Virus record (IMG/VR): IMGVR_UViG_3300032286_000567
Span: 1 to 28,755 of that record
Strand: one strand, 5' to 3'
Source: a virus
Length of the DNA: 28,755 nucleotides
A program made the translations under genes and the position numbers. Positions within the stretch are counted from its first letter, which is position 1, and the number at the start of each line of letters is the position of its first letter. Shown here one piece after another: positions 3,948-18,430 of this stretch. Below the pieces are notes generated by a model that was not told where the DNA came from, made no database searches, and worked only from the letters and a program-made list of their open reading frames with translations.

Positions 3948-5876
3948 ATGAGCGGGATTAAAAATCCTTATGAAAACTTTATTGCCCTTAGCCGTTATGC
4001 TAGGTGGATTGAAAATGAAAACCGAAGAGAAACTTGGTCAGAAACTGTAGATCGTTATTTCGATCATATGGTTAAACACCTTAACCAAAAGCATGGGTAT
4101 GTCCCAGATGATAAGCTAGTTAAGGAGTTGAAGGATTATGTCTTCGCTCGTAATGTTATGCCGTCTATGCGTTCTGTTATGACCGCAGGTCCTGCATTAG
4201 AACGAGATAACGTGGCAGGATATAACTGTTCGTTTCTTCCTGTAGACTCACTTCGTTCATTCGATGAGGCTATGTATATTCTTATGTGTGGAACTGGGGT
4301 GGGCTTCTCCGTAGAACATATGTATGTGGATAAGTTGCCAGTTGTTAACGAACACTTCGAAAAGACAGATACGGTTATTATCGTAGAAGATTCTAAGGCT
4401 GGTTGGGCGAAGGCTCTTCGTGAGCTTCTTGCCCTTTTGTATCAGGGACAGATTCCCGCAATTGATATTTCCAAGGTACGCCCAGCAGGTGCAAGACTTA
4501 AGACATTTGGTGGTCGTGCATCAGGTCCACAACCACTAGTAAACCTCTTTGATTTTGCTATCAAGACTATTCGTGGAGCAGCTGGTCGCAAACTAAAGCC
4601 TATTGAAGCGCATGATATTATGTGTAAGATTGGTGAAGTAGTTGTAGTTGGCGGTGTTCGCCGAAGTGCCATGATTTCACTTTCAGATCTCAATGATCAC
4701 GACATGGCAACTGCTAAGGCGGGTGCATGGTGGGAAAATACATCACAACGTGCACTTTCTAATAACTCTGTAGCGTACACAGCAAAGCCAGAAATGAATG
4801 ATTTCATCGCTGAGTGGAAATCCCTATATGACTCAAAGTCTGGAGAACGTGGCATCTACAATGTCAAGGCTGCACAAACCCAGGCTGCAAAATATGGTCG
4901 CAGAGATGCTGATATTCATTATGGAACTAATCCTTGTGCAGAAATTATTCTTCGACCTTATCAGTTCTGCAACCTATCAGAAGTTATTATTCGTGAAGAC
5001 GATACAATAAAGGATATCAAGCGTAAGGTAGAACTTGCAACAATTCTTGGAACTTGGCAGTCAACACTTACAGACTTCAAGTATCTTCGAAAGATTTGGA
5101 AAGATAACACAGAAGAAGAGCGTTTACTAGGCGTTTCAATCACTGGTCAGTTTGGTCATTCACTGCTTTCTGGAAATGAAGGTCTGGAAGAGTTGGACAA
5201 GGCTCTGAGTAACCTTCGCCTTATTGCTTTAAGTACAAATGTTGCGGAAGCTAAAAAGATTGGCATAAATCCATCAGCTGCAATTACTTGTGTTAAGCCA
5301 TCTGGAACAGTATCTCAACTAACTGGAGTATCATCTGGTATGCATCCTTGGCATAGCGACTATTACGTTCGCACTGTTCGTGGAGATAAGAAAGACCCAC
5401 TGACACAGTTCTTGGCAGACTCTGGAATTCCCGCCGAAGATGATTTTATGAAGCCACAGGACACCACAGTGTTTAGTTTTCCAATTAAGGCACCCAGGGG
5501 AGCAATTACTCGTAAAGATTTAACAGCGACCCAGCATTTGGATATTTGGCTTACTTACCAACGTGCTTGGTGTGAGCATAAACCATCTATTACAGTTTCT
5601 GTTCGTGAAGAAGAGTGGATGGAAGTCGGAGCATGGGTTTACAAGAACTTTGAAGAACTTTCTGGAGTTTCTTTCTTACCACACTCCGATCATACATATA
5701 AACAAGCCCCATATCAAGAAGTCACTGAAGAAGAATATGATGATTTTGTAAAAAGGATGCCAGAAAGTATTGCTTGGCAAAATCTTTCACTATATGAAAC
5801 AGAAGACAATACCACTGGAATGCAAACGCTCGCCTGTGTCTCTGGTGAATGTGACATTGTTGATATTGGAAAGTAA
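3948..5876 (+). CDS. nrdJ: Class II (adenosylcobalamin-dependent) ribonucleotide reductase
   Basis: Reduces ribonucleotides to deoxyribonucleotides using a cobalamin-derived radical. The active-site block NPCAE (328-332) contains radical cysteine C330 and E332. The redox pair is C94 (YNCSFLP) and C341 (FCNLSE). A C-terminal C-x4-C (CVSGEC) is the usual re-reduction pair. MCGTGVGFSVE and KPSGTVSQLTG are further conserved blocks. There is no N-terminal ATP cone. At 642 residues it is shorter than the classic monomeric Lactobacillus-type enzyme (about 740). It lies directly downstream of the glycosyltransferase and ends at a strong terminator. The host must make or import B12. Confidence 0.94.
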   Translation: MSGIKNPYENFIALSRYARWIENENRRETWSETVDRYFDHMVKHLNQKHGYVPDDKLVKELKDYVFARNVMPSMRSVMTAGPALERDNVAGYNCSFLPVDSLRSFDEAMYILMCGTGVGFSVEHMYVDKLPVVNEHFEKTDTVIIVEDSKAGWAKALRELLALLYQGQIPAIDISKVRPAGARLKTFGGRASGPQPLVNLFDFAIKTIRGAAGRKLKPIEAHDIMCKIGEVVVVGGVRRSAMISLSDLNDHDMATAKAGAWWENTSQRALSNNSVAYTAKPEMNDFIAEWKSLYDSKSGERGIYNVKAAQTQAAKYGRRDADIHYGTNPCAEIILRPYQFCNLSEVIIREDDTIKDIKRKVELATILGTWQSTLTDFKYLRKIWKDNTEEERLLGVSITGQFGHSLLSGNEGLEELDKALSNLRLIALSTNVAEAKKIGINPSAAITCVKPSGTVSQLTGVSSGMHPWHSDYYVRTVRGDKKDPLTQFLADSGIPAEDDFMKPQDTTVFSFPIKAPRGAITRKDLTATQHLDIWLTYQRAWCEHKPSITVSVREEEWMEVGAWVYKNFEELSGVSFLPHSDHTYKQAPYQEVTEEEYDDFVKRMPESIAWQNLSLYETEDNTTGMQTLACVSGECDIVDIGK

Positions 5877-5979: not shown

Positions 5980-6357
5980 ATGGCGGTAAATCAAAATTAT
6001 AATGTTATTCAGGGTGATTCATTTATCTTAGATGCTGTATGGGCAGATCCAAATAACGAGCTTATTAATCTTACTGGGTATACTGCGGAATTTGAGGCAA
6101 GAGATTTGCCAGGAGGAATGCTTCTGTGCACTAGTGGATCTTTATCTGCAATCCCTTCATCTGGCTCTTTTGCGGGATATCAGTTATCCACACCTAGTGC
6201 AAGTTCTGGAACTATAAGAGTTAATATTTCTGGTTCTAATACCGCCTTCTTCAATTATCCAAGAACTTCATATCAACTAAGGGTTACAAGTCCTTCTGGT
6301 GATCAGACCACTATTGTTAAGGGTTGGTTAAATGTGGATGCGGGAACCATTGAATAA
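5980..6357 (+). CDS. 125-aa beta-sandwich virion protein at the head of the fibre block
   Basis: A small protein without cysteine pairs or membrane segments. The start (..YNVIQGDSFILDAVWADPNNEL) and the alternating strand pattern ending ..TSYQLRVTSPSGDQTTIVKGWLNV resemble the Ig-like or BppU-N-type beta domains that open many baseplate and fibre gene clusters. The stop overlaps the ATG of the first fibre gene (TAATG), so the two are co-translated. It may be an adaptor joining the fibres to the virion. Structural membership is well supported by context, while the exact role is inferred. Confidence 0.7.
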   Translation: MAVNQNYNVIQGDSFILDAVWADPNNELINLTGYTAEFEARDLPGGMLLCTSGSLSAIPSSGSFAGYQLSTPSASSGTIRVNISGSNTAFFNYPRTSYQLRVTSPSGDQTTIVKGWLNVDAGTIE

Positions 6358-8378
6358 TGTCAGACAATATTAGTATTAATAATATAATTAATTCAGTCAG
6401 TGCTATTCAAGTAGTAAATACAGTCACATTACAGTCTCCAGGTCCACAAGGTCCAGCAGGTCCACAAGGTCCAGCTGGCGGTGGTACAGGAACATCATCT
6501 TCTATTACGGTTGTTTATCCAATAACAAATTCAGGAACTTCATCTGCTGCCATTATTGGACTTAGTGCTTCTTATATTCCCGCTTCTGCAACATACGCTT
6601 CATCTGCAGGTTTTGTTTTGGGTTCAAACATATCTGGTCTTGTTGCAAGCTCCACATATTCAATTTCAGCACTTTTATCGGCATCTGCTTTAAATTCATC
6701 AAGTGCTGGGTATTCCATAAATTCAAGTAGCACATCGCAAACAAATTTTTCAACTTTAACTCTATCTGGATCTAATGTTGCTACACAATCTTATGCTGAT
6801 GCTCAAAATATTTTATATTATGCATCGGCACAGTATTATGCCGATTCTGGAAGTTTAAATGCTTATGCATCAGCCGTTGCAGTAGGTCAAGCATACTCTA
6901 ATTCAGCAAGCTCTAACGCTTATAATGCAGCAAGTGCATATGCTTTATCTGCAGCAAATTCTGCATCATTAACTGCATATAATAATGCTTCAGCATTTGC
7001 AACAACAGTTTCTAATTCTGCGTCAAATAATGCGTATGCATCTGCAACATCTGTTGACCAAGCATATGCAAGATCTGCAAGTTTGACCGCATATAACAAT
7101 GCAAGTGCATTTGCAGTAACTTATGCAAACTCTGCATCTTTAAGTGCTCTTAATTCGGGAATATCTATTGGAACAACATATTCTAATTCTGCTTCATTAA
7201 CTGCTTACAATCAAGCTTCAGCATTTGCTGTAACTCAGTCAAATAGTGCTTCTTTAAACGCATATAATAATGCTTCTGCATTTGCAGTTACAACTGCAAA
7301 CTCTGCGTCTTTAAATGCTTATAATACAGCAAGTACATTAGTAAAAACGGGGGCTTGGAATAATCAATCGGCTTCTAATAATTACTCTACATACTCAGGT
7401 AGTTCTAACTATGCTATTACATCAGTAGTTACTTCTGACACCCCGCCTTCTAGTCCTGTAAGCTCTCAACTTTGGTATAATACTGAAACAAATAGATTAT
7501 TTGTTTGGTATGTAGATGTAGACTCATCACAATGGGTAGAAGTCGCAGGAGCATACACTCCAGCATTTAATGCTATTGGTTCCGACTTAATTCCAAATGT
7601 AGATAACTATTATACTTTGGGATCATCTTCGATGCGATGGAAAGGTTTGTATCTTGGAGCATCAACTCTTTATATTACAGATACAGTAACTGCAAGTAAT
7701 ATTGGATTAACTGTATCAAATGGTGTGCTTAATATATCTGGATCTGTTCAAATTCAGACGGGTAATATTAGAATTACTCCAACTGGTATTACCTCTACTG
7801 ATTCCGACCAAGATATTACAATTGGAAACACGGGAGATACAGGATATCTTGCTACTGCAAGAGGTATTAAATATCCAGATGGAAGTATTCAGATTTCTGC
7901 TGCTCCCGCTCATAACTTTGACGCATATAGTACAGTAGACCAAACTAATCCAGTTGCCAATACCCCAAGAGGATTTACATTTAATACAATTGGTAATGTA
8001 ACAAATTTAACAGGTTCTGCAGATTTTACTATTACATCTGGAAGCATTATTTCAACAAAACACGCAGGATCATACAATATTCAATTTAGTGCTCAAGGAA
8101 TTAAAACAGATAGTCAAAATGATGATGTTTATATTTGGCTAAGGCAAGATGGGCAGGATGTACCAGAAAGTGGTGGAATTGTTACTCTTATTGGAAATAA
8201 TGGTAAAATGGTATCTGGTTGGAATTATGTTGTTCAAGCAACTGCAAGCAGCACATTTTCTTTGATGTGGGCAGCAGCAGATACAAATTTGTATTTTGCA
8301 CATACCGCTTCCGCAACATCACCATATATAAGACCAGGTGTACCATCAATAGCAATTACATTTACGGAGGTTAAGTAA
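6357..8378 (+). CDS. Tail fibre protein with collagen-like stretch and Ala/Ser/Asn repeats
   Basis: A 673-aa fibre. After a short N-terminus comes a collagen-like Gly-Pro stretch (residues 28-42). Then come many degenerate repeats of the type SASLTAYNNASAFAVT (about 155-340) that end in GAWNNQSAS. A SSPVSSQLWYN..LFVWYVD..WVEV module (about 365-395) is common in phage fibres. A YPDGSIQ motif (near 503) leads into a beta-rich C-terminal domain (about 520-673) that probably forms the trimeric tip. The stop overlaps the next ATG. The repeats have close relatives in the next gene. Receptor binding is inferred from architecture. Confidence 0.88.
   Translation: MSDNISINNIINSVSAIQVVNTVTLQSPGPQGPAGPQGPAGGGTGTSSSITVVYPITNSGTSSAAIIGLSASYIPASATYASSAGFVLGSNISGLVASSTYSISALLSASALNSSSAGYSINSSSTSQTNFSTLTLSGSNVATQSYADAQNILYYASAQYYADSGSLNAYASAVAVGQAYSNSASSNAYNAASAYALSAANSASLTAYNNASAFATTVSNSASNNAYASATSVDQAYARSASLTAYNNASAFAVTYANSASLSALNSGISIGTTYSNSASLTAYNQASAFAVTQSNSASLNAYNNASAFAVTTANSASLNAYNTASTLVKTGAWNNQSASNNYSTYSGSSNYAITSVVTSDTPPSSPVSSQLWYNTETNRLFVWYVDVDSSQWVEVAGAYTPAFNAIGSDLIPNVDNYYTLGSSSMRWKGLYLGASTLYITDTVTASNIGLTVSNGVLNISGSVQIQTGNIRITPTGITSTDSDQDITIGNTGDTGYLATARGIKYPDGSIQISAAPAHNFDAYSTVDQTNPVANTPRGFTFNTIGNVTNLTGSADFTITSGSIISTKHAGSYNIQFSAQGIKTDSQNDDVYIWLRQDGQDVPESGGIVTLIGNNGKMVSGWNYVVQATASSTFSLMWAAADTNLYFAHTASATSPYIRPGVPSIAITFTEVK
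6820..7375 (+). repeat. Degenerate coding repeats in the first fibre gene
   Basis: About ten imperfect units of roughly 16-20 codons encode variants of SASLxAYNxASAFAVTxxN. The spacing is irregular and codon choice differs between units, so this is a protein-level repeat of a fibre shaft and not a recent DNA duplication. Confidence 0.8.
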
Positions 8379-11284
8379 TGGCTAGTAATTTTCCAAATTC
8401 CGCCAGCGTAGGGCAACAATTCACAGTTAATGGCGTTACTCGTCAATGGGATGGTACTGCATGGATTTCTGTTGCCACAACTGTGGCGGGACCACAAGGA
8501 CCAGTTGGTCCAACATCAGTAGCAGCATCTGTTACATATGCTACAACATCTGGAAGTACTCAGCAAACAACCTTCTCAAATATGAATGTGAGCGGTAATT
8601 TAAGTGTAACTGGTAATATTTATCAATCAGGAAGTATTGTTACTATATCTGCATCAAACCTTGAAGTTGCAGACTCCGTTATTTATCTTTCTGCTTCTAA
8701 CTACTATTCAGATTTATTAGATATTGGTTTCTACGGAGCATATGGAGCACCAAGCCATAATACCGCATCAGATCATTATCATACTGGTCTTATTAGAAAT
8801 CATAATGATGGAATATGGAATCTATTTTCTGCAGGTATAGAGCCAACAACTGGATCCATTGATTTTAATACTGCCAACTTCGACACTTTGAAGTTAGGCG
8901 GGATTGAAATAACTTCTAGTGCATTGGTATCTAATCTTAATGCCCAATATCTAAATTCAATTCCATCAAGTTCCTTTGCCCTTAAAACATATGTAGATTC
9001 ACAAGATAGTGCAACTTTGTCATCTGCTCAAACATATGCAAATAGTGCATCACTTAATTCATACAACAATGCAAGTGCATTTGCAGTAACTAATGCTAAT
9101 AGTGCATCATCAAATGCTTATAATCAGGCATCTGCATACGCAAGGTCTGCAAGTTTAACTGCATATAATAATGCCTCAGCATTTGCTGTAACACAATCAA
9201 ATAGTGCATCATTAAATGCTTACAATTTAGGTGTGACTTACACAAATTCTGCAAGCCTGAACGCTTATAACCAAGCATCTGCTTTTGCAGTTACACAATC
9301 AAATAGTGCATCACTTAATTCTTATAATCAAGCAAGTGCCTTTGCAATAAATGCAGATCAAAATTATTATGCATCTGCTCAAATATACACAAGTGGATCG
9401 GCTTGGAATAACCAATCTGCTTCTGTAAAATTTGCATCTAGTGCAGGATACCTTCCAGTTTCTGGTCTATCTTCATCTGTAATTTCAATTGGCGGTACCC
9501 CAATAGGTCTTGGAGAGACGACTTCTGGACTATCAAATATTTCATTATCCAACATTTCATCCCTAGGTTTATCAGGTAACTCCCTTGATACAAGTGCTAC
9601 CACATACTTTAATTTACTTGCAACTCCCGCAACATTAAATATTGGAACTACTGGTGCTTATGGTGGTTCAAGATCTATTAATATTGGAACGGGATCGGGA
9701 AGCAATGGAACTGGTTATATAAATATAGGCGCAACCGATCTTGGATATTATACAGAATACATAAATATTGGAGCATCTATACCAGCGACTGTTCTTTATA
9801 GTAGATTCATCTCTATTGGATCCGCAAGTGCAAATAGCACATTAACAATTTCTGCAAACTCTACAATATATGGAACACTTGGTGTATCTGGACTTATTAC
9901 TGGCTCTATAACAACTTCACGAAATTCAGCAAGTTTGGGTGGTATTTCAGCAGCAGACTATGCTCTTGATTCATCATCTAATATATTTACTGGCACACAA
10001 ACCATATTAACTGGGGCAAGTGCTAATAAGGGAATAATTGTTCGTGGATCTTCTCTTCAAACCGCAAACTTACAAGAATGGCAAAATTCTTCCAGCACAG
10101 CTCTTGTTGGTGTAACAGCGAGTGGATATATTTATAGTGGATCTTTACTATTTGCATCTACTGCTACACAGGGTAGTGCTGCACATTTAAGTATTTATGC
10201 AGCATCTTCAAATCCATCAATTATTTTAAGACCAGCAGTCACCCCTGACCCAAACAGTAATCATGTTGAAATTTATAATACTCCAACAGCAACATCTCCA
10301 ACTTTAACTATAAACAAATCTGGTCAGCTATCATCAACTGGTATTACTGGACAGTCAAGTGGTGTCGGTTTTCCAATAACAGCAGTTAGATCACTTCCAA
10401 ATAATGGAGTTTTGGGATTGTCAGCAAGGCAGTCATCATCAGTAACACACACATCAGACTTACTTCAAATTCAGCAAGCAACAACTTATTTGTCATTTGC
10501 TGGTATAACAGCATCTGGTCAGATATATACTGGTATTAATACAGCTTCTGGATACACAACAGTACCACTAACAAATACATCTGGAAGCTATGCTCAACTA
10601 TCAGTTTCTCCAGCATCATCTGCCAACCCTGGCGTAATTATTAAAGCTAAAGCGTCACAAACTGCCAATTTACAGGAATGGCAAAATTCATCAGGAAGCA
10701 CTTTATCATATGTGAACTCTAACGGTCAATTTGTTGGAGACGGTTCACTTCTTACAGGAACAGGAATACCAATATATTATTCTTCATCAGCCAACACAGC
10801 ATCATTTAGCCCAGCAGCAGCATCAAGTTTCCCATTACTTGGATTATCTACTGGCTCAGTAGCCCTTGCTGCAAATACAACGTATAAGATTGATATGGAA
10901 TTTGTTATGCAATCTGTTTCGTCTGCAGTGACCAGAACCGCATCATTACAATTTTTGTCAACATCACCTCTTTCATCTTTAGGTTATTTTGTTGAAGTGT
11001 TAGCTACAACAGTGATCCCTCCAACATCGGCTACCGCTACATCAAATATCAATATTATTTCTTCTAGTGCCCTGTTAGCAATAGAAACCGCAAGATCGGC
11101 AGCTGGAACACTTTCTAGAATTGTTAGAGTAAAGGGTACTTTAAGAACAGGAACGGCATCAACCGCACTATCACCACTTATGCAGTTTTCATCAAATCCA
11201 GAAACAAATATTACATTTTTACAGGGATCATATATGTCATTCATTCCATTACTTGGATCTACAAGCAATGGAACTTGGGGGTAG
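8378..11284 (+). CDS. Second tail fibre protein, partial paralogue of the first
   Basis: A 968-aa fibre. The N-terminus (..QQFTVNGVTRQWDGTAWISV) is a small beta module, followed by a short collagen-like GPQGPVGP (38-45). The same Ala/Ser/Asn repeats as in the preceding gene lie at about 208-350 and also end in a G-x-AWNNQSAS sequence. Two copies of QTANLQEWQNSS (near residues 561 and 761) mark a second, spaced fibre repeat. The last 170 residues form a beta-rich, cysteine-free C-terminal domain. It is translationally coupled to both neighbours. Probably a shaft and receptor-binding fibre. Confidence 0.87.
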   Translation: MASNFPNSASVGQQFTVNGVTRQWDGTAWISVATTVAGPQGPVGPTSVAASVTYATTSGSTQQTTFSNMNVSGNLSVTGNIYQSGSIVTISASNLEVADSVIYLSASNYYSDLLDIGFYGAYGAPSHNTASDHYHTGLIRNHNDGIWNLFSAGIEPTTGSIDFNTANFDTLKLGGIEITSSALVSNLNAQYLNSIPSSSFALKTYVDSQDSATLSSAQTYANSASLNSYNNASAFAVTNANSASSNAYNQASAYARSASLTAYNNASAFAVTQSNSASLNAYNLGVTYTNSASLNAYNQASAFAVTQSNSASLNSYNQASAFAINADQNYYASAQIYTSGSAWNNQSASVKFASSAGYLPVSGLSSSVISIGGTPIGLGETTSGLSNISLSNISSLGLSGNSLDTSATTYFNLLATPATLNIGTTGAYGGSRSINIGTGSGSNGTGYINIGATDLGYYTEYINIGASIPATVLYSRFISIGSASANSTLTISANSTIYGTLGVSGLITGSITTSRNSASLGGISAADYALDSSSNIFTGTQTILTGASANKGIIVRGSSLQTANLQEWQNSSSTALVGVTASGYIYSGSLLFASTATQGSAAHLSIYAASSNPSIILRPAVTPDPNSNHVEIYNTPTATSPTLTINKSGQLSSTGITGQSSGVGFPITAVRSLPNNGVLGLSARQSSSVTHTSDLLQIQQATTYLSFAGITASGQIYTGINTASGYTTVPLTNTSGSYAQLSVSPASSANPGVIIKAKASQTANLQEWQNSSGSTLSYVNSNGQFVGDGSLLTGTGIPIYYSSSANTASFSPAAASSFPLLGLSTGSVALAANTTYKIDMEFVMQSVSSAVTRTASLQFLSTSPLSSLGYFVEVLATTVIPPTSATATSNINIISSSALLAIETARSAAGTLSRIVRVKGTLRTGTASTALSPLMQFSSNPETNITFLQGSYMSFIPLLGSTSNGTWG
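9000..9425 (+). repeat. Degenerate coding repeats in the second fibre gene
   Basis: Seven or so units of the SASLNAYNxASAFAVTQSN type, related at both protein and DNA level to 6820-7375. For example, the stretch reading tcagcatttgctgtaac plus the following 16 bases matches in the two genes with only a few differences. This creates a short homology that could recombine. Confidence 0.78.
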
Positions 11285-13766: not shown

Positions 13767-14105
13767 ATGAGTAGAATGAAAATTACACAAGTTGAAGAAG
13801 TTAGCTATGGCTTGTATTTATGGGAAATGCCTAATGGCGCAGTTGTGACCGATGAAGAGGGCAACTATTTAAATGTAGCAGCAATGAAGGGCGATGTTAG
13901 AAAGATTAATGCCTTGAGACAAGCAGCGAAGTCACTTGGTTTGGAAGAAGGAAAGCCAATTTGGTTTTCTGGACACAGACAAATTACGGATGACGAGTAT
14001 TTACAGCAGAGAGAACGTATGGAATGGGGTCTTATCCCAGACGAACTTGATGTTCCTGCAATCAAAGAAGATCTTAAAGAAAAGAAAAAGATGGGTATAC
14101 TTTAA
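13767..14105 (+). CDS. 112-aa protein of unknown role preceding portal
   Basis: I do not recognise the family with certainty. It is charged and soluble: a beta-rich first half (..YGLYLWEMPNGAVVTDEEGNYLNV), a central helix (KINALRQAAKSLGL) and a Lys/Glu-rich tail. The leaderless promoter favours the ATG at 13767 over the one at 13776. The stop overlaps the portal ATG (TAATG), so it is co-translated with portal. In many phages this slot holds terminase, but the size and sequence do not match terminase. A head-assembly accessory role is inferred from position only. Confidence 0.75.
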   Translation: MSRMKITQVEEVSYGLYLWEMPNGAVVTDEEGNYLNVAAMKGDVRKINALRQAAKSLGLEEGKPIWFSGHRQITDDEYLQQRERMEWGLIPDELDVPAIKEDLKEKKKMGIL

Positions 14106-15676
14106 TGTCAGAAATACTAGATGACGACAATTCACAAACTATCAGAGTTGTTTCTGACAGAGATCGTGTTCGTCAAGAACCAGAATTTCAATTTGAAGAC
14201 CCTTTTGAAAAAAGCTGGGAGAGTTTAAAAAAGATTGATGGTCTTAATGAAAACTTTAAACGTAGAGCAAATAGGTTAGAAAAGTCTTTTACTGGTCTAG
14301 ATGATGCTAAATCAAAGAAATTAGACCCACTTGACCTAACAGGATATTCCCTGTTTATGATTGTTCAGCCACCATATAATGTGATGTATTTATCTCAATT
14401 GTTTGATCTATCTCCATTTCACCATGCAGCGGTAGATGCCAAAGTAGCAAATATTATTGGTTTGGGGTACGATTTTGAAGAAACTCAACAGGTTCTTGAT
14501 AAAGTTGAGGATGTTATGAGTGATGCTGTAAAACTAGATAAACTTCGTAGAAGAATTTCTAGGGGTAGACAAGAACTAAAAGATTACTTAGAGTCAATGA
14601 ACTCCGATGATGGCTTCTTGGAAACTATGAAAAAGTTGGTTACAGATTTAGAAGTAACTGGAAACGCCTACCTTGAAATTGGTAGAACTTCTTCTGGTAA
14701 GATTGGTTTTATTGGTCATATTCCCGCAATTACTATGCGTATTCGCCGTCATAGAGATGGATTTGTTCAGGTTGTTTATAATCGATATACTTTCTTTAGA
14801 AACTATGGGGATACAACAACAGAAGATCAAATTGGTACCGATCCAAGACCAAACGAAGTAATTCATTTCAAAAAGTATTCACCAACAAATACCTATTATG
14901 GAATTCCAGATGTTATTTCTGCGAAGAATGCTATCGCTGGTGATGAATTTGCACAGCGTTACAACCTAGACTACTTTGAAAATAAGGCTGTTCCCAGATA
15001 TATTATTACTGTAAAGGGTGCAAAACTAAGTGCTGACTCAGAAAGAAAGCTTTTAGAGTTTTTTCAAACAGGTTTGCGTGGAAGAAATCATAGAACTCTT
15101 TACATCCCATTACCATCCGATGGTGAGCAAGCCCGTGTAGAATTTGAGATGAAGGCAATTGAAGCGGGTATTCAGGACTCTTCATTCAAAGAGTATGCTG
15201 TAGAATCTCGTGACCGTATTCTTCTTGCACACCGTGTGCCAATTTCAAAACTTGGAACACCTCAAGGAATGTCTTTGGCGGGAGCAAGAGATGCCGATAA
15301 AACCTTCAAGGAACAAGTTTGCAGACCAGCGCAAGAGTACATTGAACATAAGTTGAAAAAGGTCATTGCTGAAATTACAGACATGTTTACTCTTAGATTT
15401 AATGAACTTACTCTTACCGATGAAGAAACTCAGGCAAGAATTGATGATGTTTATCTTAAAGATCAGGTTATTGTTCCAAATGATGTTAGACTTCGCAAGG
15501 GTCTTCCACCAAGAGCAGGTGGAGATACTCCGCTAGTAATTGGTCCAAAAGATACAGCGGAGCAAAAAACTCAAGCAAATGGAACTCGTCAGCGGGATCA
15601 AAAAAGAAAAATTAATGCACCAGACAAACAAGGTGAAGCAAGAAGCCCAAAGGGTGAGGGAAGAACTCAATCTTAA
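14105..15676 (+). CDS. Portal protein
   Basis: A 523-aa portal of the HK97/PBSX type that forms the dodecameric ring at the head vertex. Recognisable stretches are VDAKVANIIGLGY, LEVTGNAYLEIGR, the NEVIHFKKYSPTNTYYGIPD core (typical of portal families), and SRDRILLAHRVPISKLG with the following Cys/Pro helix. The C-terminus is a basic, disordered tail (..KRKINAPDKQGEARSPKGE..). It is translationally coupled to the 112-aa gene upstream. Terminase is not adjacent, which is unusual. Confidence 0.93.
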   Translation: MSEILDDDNSQTIRVVSDRDRVRQEPEFQFEDPFEKSWESLKKIDGLNENFKRRANRLEKSFTGLDDAKSKKLDPLDLTGYSLFMIVQPPYNVMYLSQLFDLSPFHHAAVDAKVANIIGLGYDFEETQQVLDKVEDVMSDAVKLDKLRRRISRGRQELKDYLESMNSDDGFLETMKKLVTDLEVTGNAYLEIGRTSSGKIGFIGHIPAITMRIRRHRDGFVQVVYNRYTFFRNYGDTTTEDQIGTDPRPNEVIHFKKYSPTNTYYGIPDVISAKNAIAGDEFAQRYNLDYFENKAVPRYIITVKGAKLSADSERKLLEFFQTGLRGRNHRTLYIPLPSDGEQARVEFEMKAIEAGIQDSSFKEYAVESRDRILLAHRVPISKLGTPQGMSLAGARDADKTFKEQVCRPAQEYIEHKLKKVIAEITDMFTLRFNELTLTDEETQARIDDVYLKDQVIVPNDVRLRKGLPPRAGGDTPLVIGPKDTAEQKTQANGTRQRDQKRKINAPDKQGEARSPKGEGRTQS

Positions 15677-15697
15677 GAAAGGAATAATATCAAAATT

Positions 15698-15725
15698 TTG
15701 TATTGTAGAATAAACTTGGTATTAT
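15698..15725 (+). promoter_or_regulatory. Promoter of the protease-scaffold gene
   Basis: TTGTAT (15698-15703), 16 nt, TATTAT (15720-15725) with TGG in front of the -10. The ATG at 15735 is 10 nt downstream, so the leader is at most a few bases and no ribosome binding site fits. This would let protease-scaffold and capsid be expressed apart from portal. Confidence 0.6.
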
Positions 15726-15734
15726 TTAAGTAGT

Positions 15735-17117
15735 ATGAATATTGAAAAGTCCATTTGGTCAAACGGAAGTAGAAAGATGAATCTTGCTTTTCCAATCGCC
15801 AAAGTAGATAAAGAAAATAGAACCGTTTCTGGATTTGCAACACTAGATAATGTTGACAAGCATGGAGATGTGATTACTGCCGAAGCCAGCAAAGCTGCCT
15901 TTGAGAGATTTCGTGGAAATTTGCGAGAAATGCATCAACCAATTGCCGTTGGCAAAGTATTGTCTTTTAACGAAGAAGATTTTTATGACGCAGAGTCTGG
16001 AGTAAATCACAAAGGTGTTTTTGTTGAGGCATATATTTCAAAGGGTGCTCAGGATACTTGGGAAAAAGTATTAGATGGCACCCTTACTGGATTTTCAATT
16101 GGTGGAAATATTGTAGAGGCATCTGCAGATTCAGATAGCGAAGATAGTCATAGAGTTATTCAAGCTTATGACCTACAAGAATTAAGCCTTGTCGATAATC
16201 CAGCTAATCCATTGGCAAATATTTTTTCTATTCAAAAGAATGGCGATGAATTGATTTTCAAGGGGCTTGCAGCAGAAACTGAAACTGAAAATGTATTTTG
16301 GTGCAAATCAGATCAGATTGCAACAGCTTATTCTGGAGAAACTAAAAACTGCAGCGTATGCGGAGATTCCATGCAAACAATTGGATGGGTTGAGAAATAT
16401 GATACGGAGAAAAACTCTTCTATCAAAAAAGTAGTAGATTCATTTTTTAGCAAAGATGATGCCCCAGGTCCAGTACATGGTCCAAATGGAACTACAGATT
16501 CCCCATCCGCCCCACTAAGTGTGACCTCTGAGGATACAATTAATTTGTATCCAGATCAGGCGGGAAACAATATTGGCACAACAAAAGTCAATAAAAAGAA
16601 AAAGAAAAATACAATCAGCAAAGGAGGTAGTATCGTGGCAGATTTAAGCCCAGAAGAACTAGAAGAATACGACCAAGCTGAAGAAATCAATGAAGTTGTT
16701 GAAGATACTGATGTAGTAGAAGCTACAGATGTGGCAGAAATTGAGGTTGATGAACTAGATTTTACGAAAATGGTTACTGACCTCAAAGACTTTGTTGGAG
16801 AAAAGCTTGAGAAAAGTGTTGAAAAAACAACCGATGATACTAATAAATTGCAAAAAGCATTTGAATTAGAGACAGCGGGAATTACAAAGAAGTTTGACGA
16901 ACTTGCTATTGAAAAGCAAGAATTGACAAAATCTATCGACACCCTAACAGATCTTGTTAAGAGCCTTCAAGGTTCACTACAAGACACAAATAAAAGACTT
17001 GCTATGTATGAAAATGACACAGCAATTAAGAAATCTGGGGAAGTGGACACTCCAGAAAAATCAATTCAAAAAACAAACATATGGCAAGGTTCCTTCCTCG
17101 GAGTCCAAGACTTATAG
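15735..17117 (+). CDS. Prohead protease fused to scaffold domain
   Basis: A 460-aa fusion. Residues 1-170 are an HK97-type (S78) prohead protease: a first strand pair (VSGFATLDNVDKHGDVI), catalytic His in EMHQP (H67), catalytic Ser in GFSIGG (S121) and the conserved ELSLVDNPANP (149-159). Residues about 187-222 hold WCKSD and CSVCG (C190, C206, C209), a small zinc-ribbon-like insertion. A disordered Pro/Gly/Lys linker follows. Residues 301-460 are very acidic and then coiled-coil, as expected for scaffold. A strong internal start at codon 301 should also make the scaffold alone. The capsid gene follows. Confidence 0.9.
   Translation: MNIEKSIWSNGSRKMNLAFPIAKVDKENRTVSGFATLDNVDKHGDVITAEASKAAFERFRGNLREMHQPIAVGKVLSFNEEDFYDAESGVNHKGVFVEAYISKGAQDTWEKVLDGTLTGFSIGGNIVEASADSDSEDSHRVIQAYDLQELSLVDNPANPLANIFSIQKNGDELIFKGLAAETETENVFWCKSDQIATAYSGETKNCSVCGDSMQTIGWVEKYDTEKNSSIKKVVDSFFSKDDAPGPVHGPNGTTDSPSAPLSVTSEDTINLYPDQAGNNIGTTKVNKKKKKNTISKGGSIVADLSPEELEEYDQAEEINEVVEDTDVVEATDVAEIEVDELDFTKMVTDLKDFVGEKLEKSVEKTTDDTNKLQKAFELETAGITKKFDELAIEKQELTKSIDTLTDLVKSLQGSLQDTNKRLAMYENDTAIKKSGEVDTPEKSIQKTNIWQGSFLGVQDL
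16621..16627 (+). promoter_or_regulatory. Internal Shine-Dalgarno for a nested scaffold start
   Basis: AAGGAGG lies 7 nt before the in-frame GTG at 16635 (codon 301 of the protease-scaffold gene). It is one of the strongest ribosome binding sites in the window and serves no other visible gene. Confidence 0.75.
16635..17117 (+). CDS. Nested in-frame scaffold protein (internal start)
   Basis: Starting at GTG 16635, this 160-aa product (MADLSPEELEEYDQ..) is the C-terminal third of the protease fusion. It has an acidic first 50 residues, then a heptad-rich coiled coil (..LETAGITKKFDELAIEKQEL..) and a conserved-looking tail ending WQGSFLGVQDL that could be the capsid-binding end. Lambda Nu3 inside gene C is the known precedent: protease-bound scaffold is made in small amounts and free scaffold in excess. 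The signal is seen directly, while production of the short form is inferred. Confidence 0.65.
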   Translation: MADLSPEELEEYDQAEEINEVVEDTDVVEATDVAEIEVDELDFTKMVTDLKDFVGEKLEKSVEKTTDDTNKLQKAFELETAGITKKFDELAIEKQELTKSIDTLTDLVKSLQGSLQDTNKRLAMYENDTAIKKSGEVDTPEKSIQKTNIWQGSFLGVQDL

Positions 17118-17167: not shown

Positions 17168-18430
17168 ATGAGTAACGAACTTTTACAAAAAGCAGTTAGT
17201 GCAAACCACACCACAACAGGTGATGGTGCATTCTCTTCCCTTGCAGCCAATGCAGACCTTAGCACCACAGGTGCTGACGGCGTAAGCGTTAAGGGTGGTT
17301 CAGGTCTTCTCTATCCAGATCAGGCTAACCGATTCCTAGATTACATGTGGGACGCTACAATTTTAGCAAAGCAAGCTCGTACAATCCGTATGCGCTCAAA
17401 TACAACTGAAATTGATCGTGTTGCAGTAGGTCAAAGAATCATGCAGGTTGCTGCTGAAGATAGCCCACAAGACTATGTAAATGCAGGTGGATCAACTGGT
17501 TTCCAGGCAAGTCCAGCTACATTCTCAAAGATCTCTCTTACAACTCGTAAGTTACGTCTTGACTGGGAAATCTCTGCAGAAGCACTTGAAGATAACATTG
17601 AAGGTCCAGATTTAGAAGATCACATCGCTCGTCTTATGGCTACACAAGCTGGTAATGACGTTGAAGATGTATTGATCAACGGTTCAGGATACAATGCTGC
17701 AGGTCCTCTAATGTCTGCATTCAAGGGCTTCCGTCAGTTAGCACTTGATAATGCACACGTTGTAGACGCAGGTGGATACGGTCTAGATAAGTTGATTTTC
17801 AATCAGGCTATCAAGGCACTTCCTCGTAAGTACAAGCAACGCCGTAACCAACTAAGATTCTTCGCAGGATCTAACTTGGTACAGGATTACCTATACGGTC
17901 TAACCAACACAAGTAACAACTTCCTCCCATTTGATATCTCTTCAGGTATCATTCGTGGCGATGTTGCTGCTAACGATGGTGGTCCAGGTACTGTAACCCC
18001 ATTCGCATTCGGAATCCCAGTCATCAACGTACCGTTGATGGATGAGACCCGTCCGTACAATGGAGGAACCAGCACAACAGGTACTACTTCAGGTCTTCAC
18101 GGCGAAGTACACTTGACGTTCCCACAGAACTTCATTATTGGTATCAAGCGTGATGTTGTTGTTTATCGTCTATTCCAGCCAAAGAAGGATACAATTGAGT
18201 ACACTCTCTTTATCCGTGTTGGTTGTGCAATTGAAAACTACGATGCACACGTTATTGTACAGAATGTTAGAGTTTCTGGTACATCTGCGCCAGTAGTTGG
18301 CTCGCTTGGTTCTTTGGGATCAAACGCAGCTGGAACTACAAACCCAGATGCTACAAGAGGTTCTTATGTAAACTTCCAACCAGGTGTGAACAATGTTCCA
18401 ACACAGGGTTCTGGATTAGGTACATTCTAA
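17168..18430 (+). CDS. Major capsid protein (HK97 fold)
   Basis: A 420-aa capsid subunit right after protease-scaffold, with an AAAGGTAGGTGA ribosome binding site. The first about 45 residues are low-complexity Ala/Ser/Thr/Gly. The body starts at LLYPDQANRFLDYMWDATIL, followed by the family-typical strand ..KLRLDWEISAEALEDNIEG and the helix DHIARLMATQAGNDVEDVLINGSG. The C-terminal part (..IKRDVVVYRLFQPKKDTIEYTLFIRVGCAIENYDAHVIV) is the usual end of the A-domain. Arginine codons are mostly CGT here, against AGA in neighbouring genes, which fits very high expression. A terminator follows at once. Confidence 0.93.
   Translation: MSNELLQKAVSANHTTTGDGAFSSLAANADLSTTGADGVSVKGGSGLLYPDQANRFLDYMWDATILAKQARTIRMRSNTTEIDRVAVGQRIMQVAAEDSPQDYVNAGGSTGFQASPATFSKISLTTRKLRLDWEISAEALEDNIEGPDLEDHIARLMATQAGNDVEDVLINGSGYNAAGPLMSAFKGFRQLALDNAHVVDAGGYGLDKLIFNQAIKALPRKYKQRRNQLRFFAGSNLVQDYLYGLTNTSNNFLPFDISSGIIRGDVAANDGGPGTVTPFAFGIPVINVPLMDETRPYNGGTSTTGTTSGLHGEVHLTFPQNFIIGIKRDVVVYRLFQPKKDTIEYTLFIRVGCAIENYDAHVIVQNVRVSGTSAPVVGSLGSLGSNAAGTTNPDATRGSYVNFQPGVNNVPTQGSGLGTF

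Follow-up and report, generated by a model that had tools for sequence, protein, structure and literature searches.

The question raised by this locus is whether a single long open reading frame, lying between the portal and major capsid protein genes of a virus (IMG/VR record IMGVR_UViG_3300032286_000567), encodes one protein or two. The window, meaning the whole stretch of DNA analysed, comprises positions 1 to 28,755 of that record, and the portal, protease/scaffold and capsid features described here lie on its plus strand. The reading frame (15735..17117) encodes a 460-aa full-length fusion of head maturation protease and scaffold, matching the phrog_9427 head maturation protease family (E=5e-120) and exceeding the cut-off for both PF04586 and PF14550 in Pfam. 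The portal gene (14105..15676; phrog_12, E=2e-54) lies on its 5' side and the major capsid protein (MCP) gene (17168..18430; phrog_1623, virion structural protein, E=6e-79) on its 3' side, where Streptomyces and Rhodococcus phage records likewise carry an annotated major capsid protein.

The fusion was divided into an S78/XkdF-type protease domain (about residues 14-174), a Cys-containing domain (184-220), a disordered linker and a helical scaffold. An AF2 model, of moderate confidence (mean pLDDT 58, pTM 0.34), placed disorder at 242-341 and a single long helix at 343-429, downstream of the protease domain, and its sole significant PDB match was the T4 gp21 capsid assembly protease (E=1.2e-4). 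H67, S121 (the GFSIG serine) and D154 were invariant in the aligned relatives (set A1), and with the Pfam and PHROG matches and the fold, these residues place the long protein among the S78/XkdF prohead serine proteases. A PDB sequence search with alignment returned generic coiled coils only (e.g. spike HR1 and a designed coiled coil). Identity to the Stanwilliamsviridae proteases was about 40-48%, a figure that refers to the protease comparison only. Residues 184-220 (16284-16394) contain a zinc-ribbon-like FWC...CxxCG pattern, present in most relatives, with the second Cys pair missing in one (L034). Elsewhere in the window, positions 6357-11284 hold two tail-fibre-like open reading frames with a collagen-like start, GPQGPAGPQGPAG, and many NSASLNAYNNASAFAV-type repeats.

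The original prediction placed a strong internal ribosome binding site within this gene, and direct reading of the sequence bore out its elements: a Shine-Dalgarno (SD) motif AAGGAGG (16621..16627), a 7-nt spacer TAGTATC (16628-16634) and a GTG (16635..16637) that is codon 301 of 460 and in frame with the long gene. Initiation there would give a nested scaffold of 160 aa (16635..17117; 18.0 kDa, pI 4.2), sharing the long gene's frame and stop. The predicted protein consists of an acidic segment (301-342), the long helix (343-429) and a tail with the conserved motif TAIKKSG...WxGxFL, which likely contacts the capsid protein or other scaffold molecules; the net charge of this C-terminal part is −23. 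Codon 301 had also been assigned to the exact border between linker and acidic scaffold. It does lie exactly at a charge switch, residues 284-300 carrying +7 with no acidic residue and residues 301-342 carrying −19 with no basic residue, but since disorder is predicted over 242-341, the start lies in a disordered region rather than at the onset of the scaffold helix. The C-terminal domain is assigned as a putative scaffold from its position, its acidity, its predicted long helix and the lack of any other scaffold candidate in the portal-to-MCP interval, rather than from homology to a proven scaffold.

Duplex energy with the anti-SD sequence was −13.2 kcal/mol at the nested site, the strongest among the 18 window gene starts checked, in keeping with the strength claimed for it, and compared with −10.3 kcal/mol at the MCP start and −2.9 kcal/mol at the protease's own ATG, which has no SD. 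Within the window, AAGGAGG-N7-RTG occurred once against 0.09 expected from shuffles, so a single match is only mildly unusual and the relatives make the case decisive. Local RNA structure near the nested start was not unusually open (z = −0.77) and was uninformative. GTG is a weaker start codon than ATG, and was counted against nested initiation.

Homologues were found in 139 phage records, mostly of Streptomyces phages (Stanwilliamsviridae), plus Rhodococcus phages and a few outliers, and in many aquatic viral contigs. Sites were examined in 125 complete genes, of which 76, mutually <90% identical, were treated as distinct (aquatic actinophage contigs, and Streptomyces, Rhodococcus and Alicyclobacillus phages). 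Nested starts were compared by anchoring on the SD; a long insert in L038 had spread the start over five columns of the global alignment. At the protease/scaffold junction, 74 of the 76 had an SD core (AAGGAGG in 68, GGGAGG in 4, AAGGAG in 1, TGGAGG in 1) located 4-13 nt, mostly 7 or 10 and in three relatives 13, upstream of an in-frame ATG (31), GTG (41) or TTG (2). As for relatives that keep the fusion and lose the site, which the original prediction had named as contrary evidence, the other two distinct genes (L205 and L210) carried a weaker form, AAGGGGG 7 nt before ATG-GCA (−12.7 kcal/mol pairing), and no convincing site was seen in the very distant GC-rich MAG relatives L258-L264 (Chloroflexi/Ktedonobacterales and other MAGs). 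The site is thus a feature of the phrog_9427-like group, perhaps including the Alicyclobacillus phage, and not of every S78 fusion.

The same strict scan placed the start in frame in 72 genes and in either other frame in none. For background, 26/26 protease reading frames had exactly one internal site each, and 38,539 codons of other reading frames held three such sites, all of the weaker AAGGAG form. When synonymous codons were shuffled within each gene, a site of this kind arose in 1.4-46% of the shuffled versions, depending on the gene, as against 21/21 observed. Since relatives are not independent samples, ten deep lineages were taken (the window, L002, L003, L031, L034, L038, L049, L050, L051 and L053), and their shuffle frequencies, multiplied by hand with the peptide held fixed, gave about 4e-9. 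A chance origin of the site was ruled out by the shuffles, the background reading frames and the conservation. From these comparisons of sequence, it is very probable that one reading frame yields two proteins, a protease-scaffold fusion and a free scaffold translated from a second initiation site.

Four rival readings were weighed. If the constraint acted on the protein, the K/E-G-G peptide could serve as a flexible hinge or as a site cleaved by the protease itself, with the SD letters a by-product of its coding; such proteases do cut their own linkers, and nearly every relative has GG at the junction. However, among the possible codings of Gly-Gly only GGA-GGT was used at the site (19/19 cases, vs 1/42 elsewhere), and synonymous codon identity in 12 aquatic relatives was maximal there, reaching 99.8% at codons 293-302 vs 65% gene-wide, with the top 12 of 440 windows all at the nested site. 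This peak spans the Lys-rich linker end and SD region (16586..16634). Two relatives read the same AAGGAGG in another frame, Alicyclobacillus phage MMB025 (L053) as K-E-E and the Actinomycetota MAG contig L257 as K-E-D, so that nucleotides rather than peptide are conserved; Dorin encodes E-G-V. In addition, the codon 4-13 nt downstream was always ATG, GTG or TTG although coding for M, V or L, and GTG, the rarest Val codon (65/746), was still chosen by 15/15 representative genes with Val at the nested start. The sequence evidence largely refutes a peptide-level explanation, which is left very unlikely. Just 5' of the SD, the same 12 aquatic relatives showed no variation in ATCAGCA (16614-16620) either, with codons ATC AGC in 12/12.

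The three others dispense with initiation at the site. An SD at a domain border, within a disordered linker, would be well placed to make elongating ribosomes pause once the protease domain is made and before the scaffold domain, and so aid folding, but a pause has no use for a start codon, and the codon nevertheless remains in frame, at a spacing that suits the SD, and never occurs in other frames; moreover, nested residue 2 was A, S or T in 82% of cases vs 20% for the residue that follows other Met or GTG codons of the same genes, a bias that looks like that of real N termini, and pausing alone is accordingly given very little probability. Internal SDs can also stimulate programmed frameshifting, here near the A-rich run AAAAAGAAAAAGAAAAA in a linker that is A-rich in the window's clade; this is extremely improbable, as no overlapping plus-strand open reading frame of at least 80 aa lies downstream in another frame and the A-rich run is missing in many relatives that keep the SD. 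Finally, the position of the site is precisely that expected for the beginning of an independent scaffold gene, as if formerly separate protease and scaffold genes had fused and left the scaffold's old ribosome site unused. Without use, the site would be expected to decay as the neighbouring linker did, yet it is kept under maximal synonymous constraint in lineages whose protein shares 24-45% identity with that of the window, making such a fossil highly improbable.

Under the preferred two-product explanation, ribosomes starting at 15735, without an SD, would make the 460-aa fusion sparingly, and those bound at the internal AAGGAGG would initiate at GTG 16635, so that this one mRNA would give the free 160-aa coiled-coil scaffold more abundantly. 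The free scaffold would polymerise through its long helix and organise the major capsid protein. Since the C-terminal domain is common to both products, the minority fusion molecules could co-assemble through it and so bring the protease into the procapsid for later digestion of the scaffold. In some relatives (L038, L213, L026 and similar), Hva1 TUDOR-like domains occur in the protease linker, and the L038 insert has an additional segment with a weak DUF5824 match; the TUDOR-like inserts lie upstream of the nested start and would therefore be present in the fusion and absent from the free scaffold, which would be unaffected.

Across lineages, the nested start paired at −8.9 to −16.0 kcal/mol and the protease's own start at about −4.4 to +1.0 kcal/mol, this latter range leaving out L038 and L039 (own start improperly placed) and having as its exception the Alicyclobacillus outlier L053 (−14.0 kcal/mol). 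It is this SD strength that speaks for a predicted short product made in excess of the fusion. Tentatively, this fixed asymmetry, with a protease start that never has an SD and a scaffold start with a near-perfect one, may set the protease:scaffold ratio through two initiation routes on one mRNA. The protease start would then rely on coupling to the upstream gene, and translational coupling is suggested by several Streptomyces phages in which that start overlaps or directly adjoins the upstream gene's stop. The aquatic clade would rely instead on a promoter-like block and a nearly leaderless mRNA. The block, TTTTGTATT-N13-GGTATTAT (15696..15725), is present in a single copy in the window and lies 5' of the protease ATG in 27 related viral loci; in the aquatic clade, it takes the form TTTTGTATT...GGTATYAT and ends about 9-10 nt, in the window 9 nt, before that ATG. 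A standard scan for sigma-70 promoters did not pick it out, and the promoter-like pattern is uninformative on its function since, among the matches listed in viral contigs, most contigs were not known relatives. Its sequence and position offer a lead only, that it is possibly a promoter giving a very short leader or none.

The resemblance to lambda C/Nu3 claimed in the original prediction holds for the layout, and extends to Mu. In lambda, the head protease gene carries the scaffold within its 3' part and in the same frame (Shaw and Murialdo 1980, cited in PMC8508860). As in the window, the lambda nested pair lies between the portal and MCP genes; the lambda C protein is annotated as an S49 peptidase, whereas the window protease belongs to the S78/XkdF type and has a fold like that of T4 gp21, and lambda C has a strong SD at its own start (−11.9), where the window protease has none. 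Within lambda gene C (L059), the strongest internal SD (AGGAGG, −10.8) precedes the ATG at codon 309 (locus 2543, record 5342), whose context SGGR|MTKE resembles the sites of the window group; the nu3 start given in GenBank, at 5132, follows a weaker one (−6.9). Mu I/Z has the same portal - protease/nested scaffold - MCP order, with an in-frame internal scaffold start and SD inside the protease gene; its protease also lacks an SD at its own start (−1.9), and its nested SD is weaker (−7.4). With the shared frame and stop, the portal-MCP position and the helical acidic C-terminal domain, the window gene is very probably a nested in-frame protease/scaffold of the lambda C/Nu3 type.

In the Mu-like Pseudomonas phage PaMx73, a nested start was proposed at Val177 of gene 27, preceded by ACGAGGA with a 9-nt spacer (PMC4378225). 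Mu and PaMx73 are unrelated to the window phage and have weaker SDs, and conservation in PaMx73 was noted by relative position, whereas that in the window group was tested over 76 distinct genes. Herpesvirus UL26c contains all of UL26.5 (PMC2949831). The UL26/UL26.5 pair, like that predicted for the window, combines a protease-scaffold fusion with a separately made C-terminal scaffold. The herpesvirus short form is made from a separate transcript, not from an internal ribosome site.

The direct homologues are the phrog_9427 proteases of Stanwilliamsviridae (Streptomyces phages Yaboi, Jay2Jay, BillNye and MindFlayer), in which the same nested site was present in the members examined and whose public records annotate the long protease alone. 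That only the long protease would normally be annotated had been anticipated, and none of the annotated relatives examined carried a nested CDS; annotation pipelines miss such genes because frame and stop are common with the longer gene. A literature search covering papers outside subscription found no published nested scaffold in Stanwilliamsviridae. The two-product design itself is already known from lambda C/Nu3 and Mu I/Z, and what is new is an unannotated case with a different protease class. The finding gives a large actinobacterial phage group, cultured Streptomyces laboratory phages included, a further gene that is unannotated yet strongly conserved, indicates that the two-product design of lambda and Mu also occurs with an S78/T4-like protease, and would supply the predicted 'missing' scaffold protein of this phage group.
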